From positions 124,001-188,000 of the forward strand of contig CANMUP010000003.1 in assembly GCA_947501105.1 (NCBI GenBank): a stretch of 64,000 nucleotides of DNA, in the 5' to 3' direction. The stretch comes from an uncultured Flaviramulus sp. GTDB lineage: Bacteria; Bacteroidota; Bacteroidia; Flavobacteriales; Flavobacteriaceae. Shown here piece by piece: positions 35,930 through 45,614 of the stretch (within the stretch, counting starts at the first letter, position 1; each line of letters begins with the position of its first letter). The notes under the pieces were generated by a model that worked only from the letters and a program-made list of their open reading frames with translations, searched no databases and was not told the origin of the DNA. A program made the translations under genes and the position numbers.

Positions 35930-35970
35930 AAGCAATTAATTATACACGTTGTTGTAACACGTTTAATTCA
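35930..35970. repeat. attC-like boundary repeat Q, copy C
   Basis: AAGCAATTAATTATACACGTTGTTGTAACACGTTTAATTCA; ungapped match to the copy at 44095. Confidence 0.65.
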
Positions 35971-35988
35971 TTCAAATGAAATATTCTT

Positions 35989-36228
35989 TCATTTGAAAAT
36001 AAAAATCAAACCAAATAAAAGGCTCATTAATATCAATGACCATATACTTATCAAAGATTTCCATTCAAAATAGCTGTCCTTACTAAATAAATCAAATCTA
36101 TTATTTCTCTTCAATTGATAAATTAAAAGTAAGATTCCAATTCCAAGAAAAACAATTCCAGATTCAAATGAGAAATTGTCAATATAGTAAACAATAGTAT
36201 CAGTGATACTTTCAAATATTTTTTTCAA
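35989..36228 (-). CDS. Hypothetical small membrane protein (TTG start)
   Basis: 79 aa, two TM helices; lies between two Q repeats. Confidence 0.5.
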   Translation of the reverse strand: MKKIFESITDTIVYYIDNFSFESGIVFLGIGILLLIYQLKRNNRFDLFSKDSYFEWKSLISIWSLILMSLLFGLIFIFK

Positions 36229-36269
36229 TGGGATTTATTTTTATACATGGTTATAAAACGTTTTTTATT
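36229..36269. repeat. attC-like boundary repeat Q, copy B
   Basis: TGGGATTTATTTTTATACATGGTTATAAAACGTTTTTTATT; ungapped alignment to copy A. Confidence 0.6.
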
Positions 36270-36276
36270 CTCCCAT

Positions 36277-36591
36277 TTAAATTAGCTGAAAAGAAATTAT
36301 TGATAGAATAGTACTTAGCCCAAAATAAAAGAAAGCATTTTTTCGACTCTTAATTGTTGAATGTTTTTCACAAATTTTCATCGCCAGTTTGAAAATGAAG
36401 TTATTATTTTCATAGTAATATGCTAATAAAAAAATCAATCCTATGAGTTGAATATAAATGATTAAAAACAGATTCACTTTTAACTCTGATTGAAAATGGT
36501 AAAATGCTAATAACAGAAATATTGCTAAAATCAGTATTATCAAATAGCCATTCCAGTAGTATCTTTTATTTTTGATTTCGGAACTGTTCAT
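36277..36591 (-). CDS. Hypothetical membrane protein
   Basis: 104 aa, hydrophobic segments; flanked by Q (3') and P (5') repeats. Confidence 0.55.
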   Translation of the reverse strand: MNSSEIKNKRYYWNGYLIILILAIFLLLAFYHFQSELKVNLFLIIYIQLIGLIFLLAYYYENNNFIFKLAMKICEKHSTIKSRKNAFFYFGLSTILSIISFQLI

Positions 36592-36660
36592 TAAAATGTT
36601 TTACAAAGACTTGATATAAAAACGTTTTAATATTTTATATCTAATGCTAAACGAAGTTAT
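36591..36660. repeat. Boundary repeat P, copy 2
   Basis: TTAAAATGTTTTACAAAGACTTGATATAAAAACGTTTTAATATTTTATATCTA...TAAACGAAGTTA; 35/45 ungapped identities to P copy 1. Confidence 0.6.
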
Positions 36661-36689
36661 CGCTTTTTTCTGACAAAGTTAATAGAGAC

Positions 36690-37966: not shown

Positions 37967-40351
37967 TTAAGTCGTATATTTTTTCTTTCTAAAGTAATTA
38001 AAAGCAAAACCAAATAAAGCTAATAATACTAATGGTAATGCTATATTTATGAGTTGCCATTTCGTTTTTTGAATCGCTATTTTTTGCTGATCCAAAAATG
38101 CCACTGCAATTTCTTTTGATCGAATGTTTATAAGTCCATTATCGTCTAGCAAATAATTAACAGCATTGAGTAAAAATTCTTTGTTGCCATAAGTTTGTCC
38201 AGTCCATCTATCAAACCCTAATTCTTGCGGTACATTTTTTGCCACATCGTTTTTAATCACATCGCCATCAGCTATAACAATCATTTTGGTTAAAACGCTT
38301 TTGTTTCTTTCTTCTGAAAGATTAAAAGGTTTTATACGGTTATTATAAACACTTGTAAATTCACCTTCTAATAAAACGGCTAGAGGTTGATTTCCCTTGT
38401 TAAATGATGCAGGATTTTGCTCTTGGGTTACAACTTCTAAACTTATTTCTTTAGGCGTGCCTTCTAATTTTGTAAGCGGAGCACTTTCTAAAAGAATAGT
38501 TTTATTAATGTTGTTTTTTAAGGTGTCAATTTGATTTGCGAAATCGAATTTCACGAGGTTTAAATTATTAACAATAGGATGCTTACTATTTGAAGAAGCA
38601 AGTGGCGAGTATGGCCATCTTAAATTTTGAAACTGCGAGTCACTACCTTCTCCAATAGCCAAAGTAATGGGAGCAGAGTACAATGTGCTTACCATAACAG
38701 GATTAATGCGAACCCCATATTTGAAGAAGAAATCGTTTAAATTCAGATTTCTAGGAATGGCCAAATTAGATCCTGAAGCATTATATAAACTATCTTTCTC
38801 TATAGCAACATTATCAACAAGCCAAAGGCTTTTTCCGCCATTCATTGTAAATTGATCTAAAACTAATTTTTCTTTTTCAGAAAACGCTTCGGTTGGTTTT
38901 GCAGAAATAATTAAATCAAATTTATTTAAATCGCTAAGTGTTTTTTGTGGATTACTTGCAACACTATCTAAAGTAAAAGGCGCAATAAAATAGTACTCAT
39001 TAATTTTTTTTATAAAGTCTGCAATGTATTTATCTTCTAATTGATTATTACCTTTTAAAACGGCAATTTTTTTCTGCTTGGGCGTTGTTAATTTACTAAA
39101 ACCATCTGTAAATGCATATTCTAAATGCTGCACCGAGTTACTTACTAATTCTTGCTGCGAGGCGCCAATTTTATTTTTAACCAAAGGAATGGTAATGGTA
39201 ACATCATTATAACTTGCTAGAGCCCAAGGGAAAATAATAGCTTGAGACGATTTTCCGCTTTCTTGTACACTTAATTGCATAGGTGTAAGTCCACGTTGTG
39301 TAAGTTGCTGAATGTTACGTTCGCGAGTCGCTTCGTCTTCTAAAGGGTTTATAAAATTGAAATTAATATTATTGTTTTCTTCTGAAAATTCTTCAAGTAA
39401 TTGTTTGGTTTCTCTTTGAAGGCGTTTAAATTCAGATGGAAAACCATCACCTTTTAAAAATACATCAACAATAATTGGAGAATTAATGGCATTAATAATT
39501 TGTTTTGAAGCTTCGCTTAATGTGTAACGATTATCTTCAGTTAAATCAAAGCGTTTATGAATTGATGAAGAGAAAACATTTAAACCTATTAAACTTAACA
39601 ATATAATTGAAATACGTTGCCACTCTTTTTTATTAATTTTTTGTGTTTTAATTGCTGTAACCGTTAGCATTATAAAGAATAACGTTACACTTAAAAAGTA
39701 TAAGATATTGCTTGTGTCAAGTACGCCACGACTCATACTTTTAAAATGATAACTCATACCTAATTGCTCAACAAACGCACTAGACGTAACATCTGAAATA
39801 CCTTCAAAACCAATATAAAACAGGAAACAAAGAAAAACAGCGCTAATAAATGCCACAATTTGATTATCAGTAATAGCAGAACAAAAGATACCAATTGCGG
39901 TATAAGATGCCATTAAAAAAAGCAATCCAAAGTAAGACCCAAGTGTGCTACCCATGTCTAAATTTCCAACAGGGTTTCCCAGTTGATAAACAGTGTAAAC
40001 ATAAAGTACTGTTGGTAAAAGCGCGATTAAAATTAAAACAAAGGCACCAAAATATTTACCTAAAACGATGTTTGTATGAGAGATTGGTTTTGTAAGTAGT
40101 AACTCTAAAGTGCCTTGTTTTTTTTCATCCGAAAAGCTGCGCATGGTAACCGCAGGGATTAAGAAAATTAATATCCAAGGTGCTAATAAAAAGAAAGATG
40201 ATAAATCTGCAAACCCATAATCTAGAATATTAAATTCTCCTTTAAACAACCATAAAAACAAGCCGTTTAACAAAAGGAATATTGCAATTACCAAATACCC
40301 TATTGGTGATGCAAAAAACGAGTTTATTTCTTTTTTTAAAATTGCTAACAT
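37967..40351 (-). CDS. gldFG: Fused gliding-motility ABC transporter GldF-GldG
   Basis: N-terminal ABC-2 permease (MLAILKKEINSFFASPIGYLVIAIFL), then HKRFDLTEDNRYTLSEASKQI GldG-like domain in one 794-aa ORF. Confidence 0.85.
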   Translation of the reverse strand: MLAILKKEINSFFASPIGYLVIAIFLLLNGLFLWLFKGEFNILDYGFADLSSFFLLAPWILIFLIPAVTMRSFSDEKKQGTLELLLTKPISHTNIVLGKYFGAFVLILIALLPTVLYVYTVYQLGNPVGNLDMGSTLGSYFGLLFLMASYTAIGIFCSAITDNQIVAFISAVFLCFLFYIGFEGISDVTSSAFVEQLGMSYHFKSMSRGVLDTSNILYFLSVTLFFIMLTVTAIKTQKINKKEWQRISIILLSLIGLNVFSSSIHKRFDLTEDNRYTLSEASKQIINAINSPIIVDVFLKGDGFPSEFKRLQRETKQLLEEFSEENNNINFNFINPLEDEATRERNIQQLTQRGLTPMQLSVQESGKSSQAIIFPWALASYNDVTITIPLVKNKIGASQQELVSNSVQHLEYAFTDGFSKLTTPKQKKIAVLKGNNQLEDKYIADFIKKINEYYFIAPFTLDSVASNPQKTLSDLNKFDLIISAKPTEAFSEKEKLVLDQFTMNGGKSLWLVDNVAIEKDSLYNASGSNLAIPRNLNLNDFFFKYGVRINPVMVSTLYSAPITLAIGEGSDSQFQNLRWPYSPLASSNSKHPIVNNLNLVKFDFANQIDTLKNNINKTILLESAPLTKLEGTPKEISLEVVTQEQNPASFNKGNQPLAVLLEGEFTSVYNNRIKPFNLSEERNKSVLTKMIVIADGDVIKNDVAKNVPQELGFDRWTGQTYGNKEFLLNAVNYLLDDNGLINIRSKEIAVAFLDQQKIAIQKTKWQLINIALPLVLLALFGFAFNYFRKKKYTT

Positions 40352-40366
40352 TTATTTTATTTTGTA

Positions 40367-40455
40367 CGTCATTACGAGGAGCATAGCGACGTGGTAATCT
40401 TTTTTATATTTACGAGATTACCACAACAAATTTATTAATTTGTCTCGCAATGACG
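40367..40455. repeat. REP-like palindromic element, copy 1
   Basis: CGTCATTACGAGGAGCATAGCGACGTGGTAATCT...AGATTACCAC...AAATTTATTAATTTGTCTCGCAATGACG. Confidence 0.75.
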
Positions 40456-40468
40456 ATTAATTTGTTGC

Positions 40469-42713: not shown

Positions 42714-42792
42714 AGCTATTTCCCGCTTTCAGTTATATCTTTTTTGTAAAAAACAAAAAAGGATGCCACTTCAATCGGGGCTAGGGCTTTTT
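42714..42792. repeat. Structured intergenic repeat
   Basis: Hairpin ATCTTTTTTGT...ACAAAAAAGGAT; TTCCCGCTTTC...CCACTTCAATCGGGGCTAGGGCTT. Confidence 0.4.
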
Positions 42793-42809
42793 AGATAAAA
42801 ACAATGAAA

Positions 42810-42926
42810 CGTCATTGCGAGATAAATTAATAAATTTAAAGCCTGTACTGAGCGCAGTCGAAGTATGGCAATCTGTTAAAAAGGAAGAGATTACCACGTC
42901 GCAAAAAAATGCTCCTCGTAATGACG
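42810..42926. repeat. REP-like palindromic element, copy 2 (inverted relative to 40367)
   Basis: CGTCATTGCGAGATAAATTAATAAATTT...AGATTACCACGTCGCAAAAAAATGCTCCTCGTAATGACG. Confidence 0.75.
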
Positions 42927-42967
42927 ATAACAAATAAACAAATCAACTCATAAACGAATAGACAATA

Positions 42968-43980: not shown

Positions 43981-44127
43981 GGAGTTATGCTTAATGTGTT
44001 TGTGTATGATTACTGACGTGTTTAAGTAACTAACTTACTAAAAATGGAACGAAATAGAGGAAAATCCGTAGGATTTTCTAAGTAAGCGAGAACCAAGCAA
44101 TTATTTTTACACGGTGTTATAGGGCGT
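43981..44127. repeat. Long imperfect foldback, attC-like
   Basis: Nested arms GAAAATCC/GGATTTTC, CTTACT/AGTAAG and GTGTATGATTAC against GCAATTATTTTTACAC, ending at GTTATAGGGC. Confidence 0.45.
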
Positions 44128-44135
44128 TTTTTATT
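44095..44135. repeat. attC-like boundary repeat Q, copy A
   Basis: AAGCAATTATTTTTACACGGTGTTATAGGGCGTTTTTTATT. Confidence 0.65.
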
Positions 44136-44250
44136 ATCTCTTCTTTATAATTAATAATATCTTTGTCCGACACATTAATTTTGGTTAAAAAATCATTTGC
44201 CCAGACTTTAGAAACAGGATGTGATTTTGCCAGTATTCTTAAAGCAATAG

Positions 44251-45447
44251 TTAATTCTTTCTTACTGTTTTCACTTTGTTTCTCACTTGATACGAACCTC
44301 TGAACTGTTTTAAACATAAGCCTTCTGCAAATTTATTATAATCACTTTCAGTCAGTCTTGATTTTGCACGTTTCAGACTTGTTTCATTATAATTCTTTAT
44401 CTCTAAATTATTTGGGGTAATTTGTAACGCTCTATAATACCAGCTATTAAGAAAGTTATACCATTCTTTATCAAAATGTGAATAATGTTTATTATAATAT
44501 TCGACTTTAGTAAATAGTGAATTCCAGATTTCGGTATCATTATAATTTTCTTTGACATTAATAGATAATAATATTATTTCACGATTAAGTCTATTCTTAC
44601 TTGCAAAAACAGTGTCAATTTTTGCTAATTCACTAAATAACAATTTATTTATTTCATCATTAGAAAGGTTGTTATAAGATTTACCATATAAACCTTTTGG
44701 AGTCTCAAATGCAAATGACATAAGTCCACTAATAAATTTATCGATTCTTTCTTTGCCATATAATTCTGAATATTTATTCCTGTTTACGATAACAAATTTG
44801 CTTAAAGGAGAGAAAATTGAATAGGAGTAGTTCTCAATTAGGTGAAAGTATTGTGGCATATACCATTTATCCTGAGGAATGTCCTGAAAATAATCAAATA
44901 GAAGTGAGTCCTTTTCAATTGGACTTAAATAACCAACAAAGGAACTAAATTCAGTAATATCTTGTATGTTTAATTCATAATCAGATAAAGAATTCGGAAT
45001 CGTATTATATGAAAATTCTTCATTTACAACTGTATAACCTAATTCTAAAAACTCCGTAGGTCCTTTATACCCAACATGCTTAAGTTCGATTTCTAATTGA
45101 GGAGATAAAAATAATAATGTTGGGTAGGCTTTAACTTCAAACTTATTTGCCAAAGTAATACCTTCTCCTCTTTCAGCGTCATATTTAAGACAAATAAAAT
45201 TCTTGTTGTAGAAGTCTCCAATTATTGAATCTGTAAAAACGAAGTTATCCATTTTTTTACATGGTCCACACCAAGATGTTGAAAAATCTATGAATATTGG
45301 TCTATTCAGTTCTTTAGAGATTTTAATGGCTTCTTCAAAAGATTCTGAGTAAAATTCAATTCCTTTTATAGAATGATTTTGTTTTTTTGTTTTATTACCA
45401 CAACTAAATAAAATTAGAGAAGCTAAAATAAATAGTAAGTTTTTCAT
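44251..45447 (-). CDS. Thioredoxin-fold lipoprotein (possible C-terminal frameshift)
   Basis: DFSTSWCGPCKKMDNFVF; overlapping 66-aa ORF 44117-44317 may be its original C-terminus. Confidence 0.8.
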   Translation of the reverse strand: MKNLLFILASLILFSCGNKTKKQNHSIKGIEFYSESFEEAIKISKELNRPIFIDFSTSWCGPCKKMDNFVFTDSIIGDFYNKNFICLKYDAERGEGITLANKFEVKAYPTLLFLSPQLEIELKHVGYKGPTEFLELGYTVVNEEFSYNTIPNSLSDYELNIQDITEFSSFVGYLSPIEKDSLLFDYFQDIPQDKWYMPQYFHLIENYSYSIFSPLSKFVIVNRNKYSELYGKERIDKFISGLMSFAFETPKGLYGKSYNNLSNDEINKLLFSELAKIDTVFASKNRLNREIILLSINVKENYNDTEIWNSLFTKVEYYNKHYSHFDKEWYNFLNSWYYRALQITPNNLEIKNYNETSLKRAKSRLTESDYNKFAEGLCLKQFRGSYQVRNKVKTVRKN

Positions 45448-45471
45448 AATTTAAATTGGATTGGGTGAAGG

Positions 45472-45563
45472 TTAAATGCCCTATAACGATTTGATATGAA
45501 ATCGTTTCAATGTTTTATATCTACCGATACTGAAACAAGTTCAGCACAAGTAAGCGAAGTTAG
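45472..45563. repeat. Boundary repeat P, copy 1
   Basis: TTAAATGCCCTATAACGATTTGATATGAAATCGTTTCAATGTTTTATATCTA...TAAGCGAAGTTA; perfect AACGATTT-GATATG-AAATCGTT dyad. Confidence 0.65.
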
Positions 45564-45614
45564 AATTTTCTTATCAAAGCATCAATACGAAGTTGTACGT
45601 ATTTTTTAATTGCA

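Follow-up and report, generated by a model that had tools for sequence, protein, structure and literature searches.

The repeats at positions 35930, 36229 and 44095 of the window, a 64,000-nt stretch (G000:C3:124001-188000) of a flavobacterial genome of 4.19 Mb in 13 contigs, are very probably attC sites of flavobacterial integron cassettes, single members of which also sit in dispersed promoter-bearing platforms and would be served in trans by a tyrosine recombinase at the head of a large cassette array. On a broader reading, which we favor more cautiously, the whole would form a distributed integron: an array together with some 20-30 dedicated promoter-plus-attC platforms, each expressing one exchangeable cassette and served in trans by a class of recombinase that lacks the additional domain of IntI.

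Repeats in the Window and the Genes Beside Them

The three copies align without gaps over 35 nt, with identities to the first copy of 69% for the second and 80% for the third, and the neighboring ORFs lie exactly where the original prediction had placed them. A 22-nt repeat pattern has 2 matches in the window vs. 0.04 expected (copy B being too diverged to match it) and 31 in the whole genome vs. 0 for the reversed control, which rules out a chance origin; the 31 matches lie mostly in one orientation, in the single stretch C5:414-452 kb. The original prediction had been staked on further copies in the genome and on a correlation between the repeats and the presence or absence of adjacent ORFs, and both were observed, the latter by comparison with congeners.

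We searched the repeats with a covariance model of the full site (R1). The proposal that cassette-like gene units carry attC-like sites at their 3′ ends was borne out and all three copies are real, but only the third is complete, the other two being truncated remnants (Table 1): as a full site, copy C reaches only 13 bits (E 0.87), and copy B is not detected by the model. The core, which had been described as diverged, turned out to be canonical: cassette A has GTTATAGGGC at its 5′ end and GCCCTATAAC at its 3′ end, complementary at 10/10 positions. In the attC of cassette A, R'' is CCCTATAAC and the R' end is CATTAAGC, in which the cleavage triplet GTT reads ATT, so that this cassette, as judged from its sequence, is probably fixed. 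On the dnaN side, the junction compared with that of congener G002 shows that copy C lost its 3′ half and the right end of the platform by deletion, and the dnaN-side cassettes look fixed in this way. A family search with the 79-aa ORF gave no match. The window also contains an Rfam Flavo-1 RNA (42715-42786, minus strand, 71.7 bits) and two inverted-repeat pairs (40350-40462 and 42803-42943) with motifs CGTCATTGCGAG / CGTCATTACGAGGAGCAT, which belong to an interspersed repeat family found in many places in congeners too.

Table 1. Features of the cassette loci in the window (positions within the window)
Feature	Position	Strand	Description
Copy C	35930..35970	-	attC remnant of 79-aa ORF, R''-L'' half, core GTGTTACAAC
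79-aa ORF	35989..36228	-	TTG start; cassette gene remnant
Copy B	36229..36269	-	attC remnant of 104-aa ORF, R''-L'' half, core GTTTTATAAC
104-aa ORF	36277..36591	-	Membrane-type, cassette gene; 8xMP match below cut-off
Platform 1 (dnaN side)	36602..36683	-	Promoter-like TAACTTCGTTTA and hairpin GATATAAAATATTAAAACGTTTTTATATC; model R2, 80 bits
Complete attC of cassette A (third copy)	43989..44122	-	Covariance model R1, 91 bits, E 6.7e-19
Cassette A (purC side)	43995..45486	-	From TTATAGGGC to attC end
398-aa lipoprotein-like thioredoxin-fold protein, cassette A gene	44251..45447	-	Thioredoxin_7, 3.6e-13
Platform 2 (purC side)	45485..45586	-	Promoter-like ATTGA...TAACTTCGCTTA, inserted interspersed repeat, hairpin GATATAAAACATTGAAACGATTTCATATC, junction CG|TT

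A 43-Cassette Array With Integron Anatomy

The window had been read as containing no integrase, and a recombinase is found on another contig, heading an array (C5:410774-453024) of 43 complete attC sites in a single orientation. The sites are 129-135 nt long, with one exception at 191 nt, and mostly single ORFs lie between them, the longest ORF being in sense in 37/43 cassettes. These ORFs belong to unrelated families; defense genes, considered as the main cargo, amount to only two proteins with weak matches. Some cassettes are duplicated, and the duplicates include whole blocks (G000:C5:413244-414770 and 418809-420335; 423204-424892 and 426390-428078).

A hallmark of integrons is that the cassette, not the site, carries matching cores, its 3′ RYYYAAC complementing its own 5′ GTTRRRY, the latter being where the preceding site ends. 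In the array, 36 of the 43 cores match perfectly (7/7) with the preceding site vs. 5/43 within the same site, and shuffling gave a mean of 3.6 and a maximum of 12 (20000 trials). Such per-cassette matching of 7-nt cores is, as far as sequence can tell, the signature of integron recombination. The L stem is paired at 97.5% over 38 sites with 6 pairs doubly changed, while slid versions stay below 50%. The sites form an imperfect attC hairpin, in which the R and L boxes pair and the spacer stays unpaired; an alignment-based count shows the R/L stem, which plain minimum-energy folding does not give clearly. Classical extrahelical bases are not clearly present in these sites, and neither the attC sites nor the platforms described below match an RNA family in Rfam. 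With its tandem single-gene cassettes in one orientation, ending in attC sites and carrying complementary end cores, the array thus has the anatomy of an integron.

These results also bear on hairpin-ended transposons (IS200/IS605-like) or MITEs with passenger genes. Hairpins do stand at the ends of the units and the insertions are single-copy, but each unit has its hairpin at the 3′ end alone, the contents are unrelated genes, the arrays are tandem in one orientation, and no transposase accompanies the units. Moreover, the cores vary between units and match within each, which transposon ends would not do, making this explanation extremely improbable.

The attC covariance model gave 76 matches in the genome. 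Small attC clusters lie apart from the main array and the platforms (G000:C2:84511-85786, C1:358312-364376 and C3:99214-102532), and the head of the first resembles the attI region of other recombinases. Just beyond the distal end of the array lies a second tyrosine recombinase that appears to belong to the Bacteroides mobile-element (CTnDOT) type (L033:17718-18923; G000:C5:453717-454922).

The Array-Head Recombinase and Its Relatives

The recombinase at the array head (380 aa, C5:409163-410305) lies upstream of the first cassette and shares the orientation of the cassettes. The 5′ core of cassette 1, GTTAGCA, lies 47 bp past the stop codon of the recombinase gene and matches R'' TGCTAAC of cassette 1; we regard this position as a putative attI, and it shows recurring elements in relatives. 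The catalytic R, K, H, R, H and Y columns are invariant in the alignment, and the protein matches PF00589 (2.8e-42), as expected of an IntI-type tyrosine recombinase with conserved catalytic residues. Two other marks of IntI are lacking: a gap of ∼42 residues between the catalytic motifs, relative to VchIntIA (2a3v) and IntI1, corresponds to the absence of the additional domain, which is missing from every array-linked recombinase aligned, and the TIGR02249 score of 210.7 bits falls under the cut-off of 265. The protein passes NF040815. Among solved structures, XerA types and the Vibrio integron integrase 2a3v come nearest in sequence; when the fold of a close homologue is compared, 2a3v ranks first. 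The nearest named loci are in Maribacter, Winogradskyella and Seonamhaeicola. In a tree that held only four IntI-clade rows, the flavobacterial recombinases branch outside the IntI clade, which has full support; support for their own unity is weak, and the array-linked proteins of G006 and G024 branch apart. Three congeners have recombinases of different branches yet one type of platform, which counts against the reading we prefer.

The same layout recurs in relatives. Model R1 finds attC sites in nearly all sampled genomes of the family, with at least 82 in one complete genome, and at least 12 flavobacterial genomes have a recombinase of this set followed by attC sites in the same polarity. 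Among named loci, those of Seonamhaeicola aphaedonensis, Winogradskyella ursingii, Algibacter onchidii and Zunongwangia mangrovi, for example, also have attC downstream. When the core test was applied to relatives' arrays, 55/73 cores were perfect (shuffle maximum 15), with 18/18 in one array. At one locus (L151), an array-linked recombinase has attC sites on its other side, which is the classical divergent layout.

The tie between the recombinase and the attC sites is one of position only. We considered whether the cassettes are moved by another enzyme, be it a canonical IntI encoded on an unsequenced element or a Xer recombinase, with the array-side protein as a bystander. The additional domain that this protein lacks is reported to be essential in IntI-type enzymes (PMC9668308, PMC8138268), which, together with the TIGR02249 score, speaks for such an enzyme. 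However, no canonical IntI exceeded the TIGR02249 cut-off in 41 relatives, and none that could act in trans was found in the genome itself. The same search does work: across 398 genomes of the phylum it recovered 109 such proteins, of which only one comes from this class. Given in addition that recombinases of this set repeatedly head arrays in the same polarity, a different enzyme appears unlikely. IntegronFinder 2.0 names one complete integron within the Bacteroidetes proper, in Salinibacter (PMC9024848), and our search of the open-access literature returned no published description of flavobacterial integrons of this kind or of such platforms.

Dispersed Platforms With a Promoter-Like Stretch and an attC-Like Hairpin

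The window copies lie outside the array, and a repeat common to positions 36594-36643 and 45474-45523 led to a second element, which we call the platform, at both places. It is a repeated unit of ∼95 bp comprising a promoter-like stretch, TTGAC...TAACTTCG, an attC-like hairpin and then ATTAAACGAAC. Around the dispersed cassettes of this genome and three congeners, the conserved elements are TTGACTTTG...TAACTTCGTTTAAC, a hairpin such as GATATAAAACATTAAAACGATTTCATATC, CA|TT, and the right end TTAAACGAAC. Cassettes enter at N|TT, ahead of this fixed right end, and the cassette gene always points away from the promoter-like stretch, which we read as a putative promoter from its likeness to the Bacteroidota consensus. 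The hairpin covaries, and empty platforms fold, well below shuffles (z −4.7 and −6.0), as a single hairpin that includes the outer arms TTCGTTTAAC / ATTAAACGAA, which form a core pair of attC type. We also considered the platform as a promoter cassette and rejected this, since its left end, TTGACTT, does not complement the right core. An interspersed palindromic repeat, TGTGCTGAAnTTnTTTCAGTATT, is inserted in several platforms, often in the hairpin loop (window 45522-45560; L249, L250 and L252), and at one locus of G003 (L240, G003:C1:3220791-3220863) a platform-type hairpin directly follows a cassette-like core, GTGCTACAAC, as if it were that cassette's short attC.

A covariance model of the platform (R2) gives 32 copies in this genome and 23, 26 and 34 in its congeners; it gives 19, 9 and 2 in three further genomes and none in the other 33. 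In this genome, 17/32 platforms have an attC in the right polarity 0.4-2.6 kb downstream and 0 in the wrong polarity, and several others are filled, with a low-scoring attC but with the right end CG|TTAAACGAAC. Filled and empty counts are approximate, the state being called by the right-end pattern and some genomes being drafts. At the platform junctions, 9/18 cassettes have cores matching at 8/9 or more positions (shuffled mean 1, maximum 5), and several have poorly matching or degenerate cores. About 4-5 of the 32 matches precede genes that are conserved in a congener, in place of cassettes, which means that some matches are not docking sites.

This last observation, and the place of the hairpin directly after a Bacteroidota-like promoter, would also fit a hairpin whose main role is that of a 5′ mRNA element in a promoter family, with cassettes exploiting it by chance. 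We hold this to be quite unlikely, as the outer arms reproduce the attC core, cassettes enter exactly there, and Rfam offers no matching family.

Exchange of Cassettes at Orthologous Platforms

Comparison of orthologous loci indicates that the platform contents turn over. At the dnaN site, where the window carries decayed cassettes, G002 is empty (AAAACATTAAACGAACC) and G003 has one complete, different cassette between ACA|TTACCT and CCG|TTAAACGAACC. At the purC site, the three congeners have different content or none in place of cassette A: the window carries the thioredoxin cassette, G002 a 304-aa gene and G001 two other genes, while G003 is empty. Orthologous platforms whose flanks are conserved on either side form 15 pairs (G000, G002 and G003; flank identity 81-99%), of which 12 hold cassettes without nucleotide similarity, 2 are empty vs. 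filled, and 1 has a common cassette (98%). In the loci compared, a nucleotide search found no cassette common to arrays and platforms, the sole match being in a flank, next to an apparent insertion sequence.

An alternative is that the dispersed cassettes are ordinary off-target insertions by an integron integrase at attG-like secondary sites, the platform being only a favored target. An N|TT insertion point is typical of attG-type sites, and the junctions fit it. IntI1 has been reported to insert cassettes into widespread, nonclassical attG sites, according to work cited in PMC12901181. Here, however, cassettes enter a conserved and covarying element that combines a promoter-like stretch with a fixed right end and is detected 23-34 times per genome in four congeners, and the insertions have uniform polarity and are repeatedly swapped at the same place. 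Degenerate secondary sites would not have such a common anatomy, which leaves off-target insertion with a low probability.

Discussion

Based on these results, we propose that a recombinase without the IntI additional domain would cut folded single-stranded attC sites, with a choice of strand, and would excise cassettes as circles. The circles would then be inserted at attI, at attC or, with the recombinase acting in trans, at an attC-like platform. A gene inserted there would always come to lie downstream of the promoter-like stretch, from which the platform may express its cassette.

On the accepted view, an integron requires an IntI that has its additional domain, and a single promoter at the head of the array expresses the cassettes. 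The family-wide cassette system of flavobacteria would depart from both. Searches demanding the additional domain would call these arrays orphan, and the system offers a direct test of whether that domain is needed to recombine folded attC sites. With promoters at dispersed sites, many cassettes could be expressed simultaneously. How stored cassettes turn into expressed genes could be tested directly in this system as well.

Among known systems, the array resembles a sedentary chromosomal integron such as the Vibrio superintegron in its large size, single orientation, single-gene cassettes, homogeneous attC sites, matching 7-nt cores and duplicated cassettes, with a recombinase and a putative attI at one end. 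In contrast, the flavobacterial recombinase lacks the additional domain, has ∼100 extra N-terminal residues and runs in the cassette direction. The dispersed cassettes recall CALIN and SALIN elements (attC clusters or singles without an integrase) in that one or a few attC cassettes stand away from the integrase, but most singles here occupy one repeated promoter-bearing platform, with contents swapped between species. As with the attG sites that IntI1 targets in genomes, cassettes are inserted away from the integron, at a short point of the N|TT type; however, attG sites are described as having diverged from classical att sites both in sequence and in structure (PMC12901181), whereas the platforms are conserved, attC-like in structure, hairpin-forming and endowed with a promoter-like stretch. 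Finally, the gene-less promoter cassettes of Vibrionaceae (PMC11014356) likewise place a promoter beside an attC site, but they lie inside the array, while the platforms have a left end without a cassette core and are dispersed over the chromosome.
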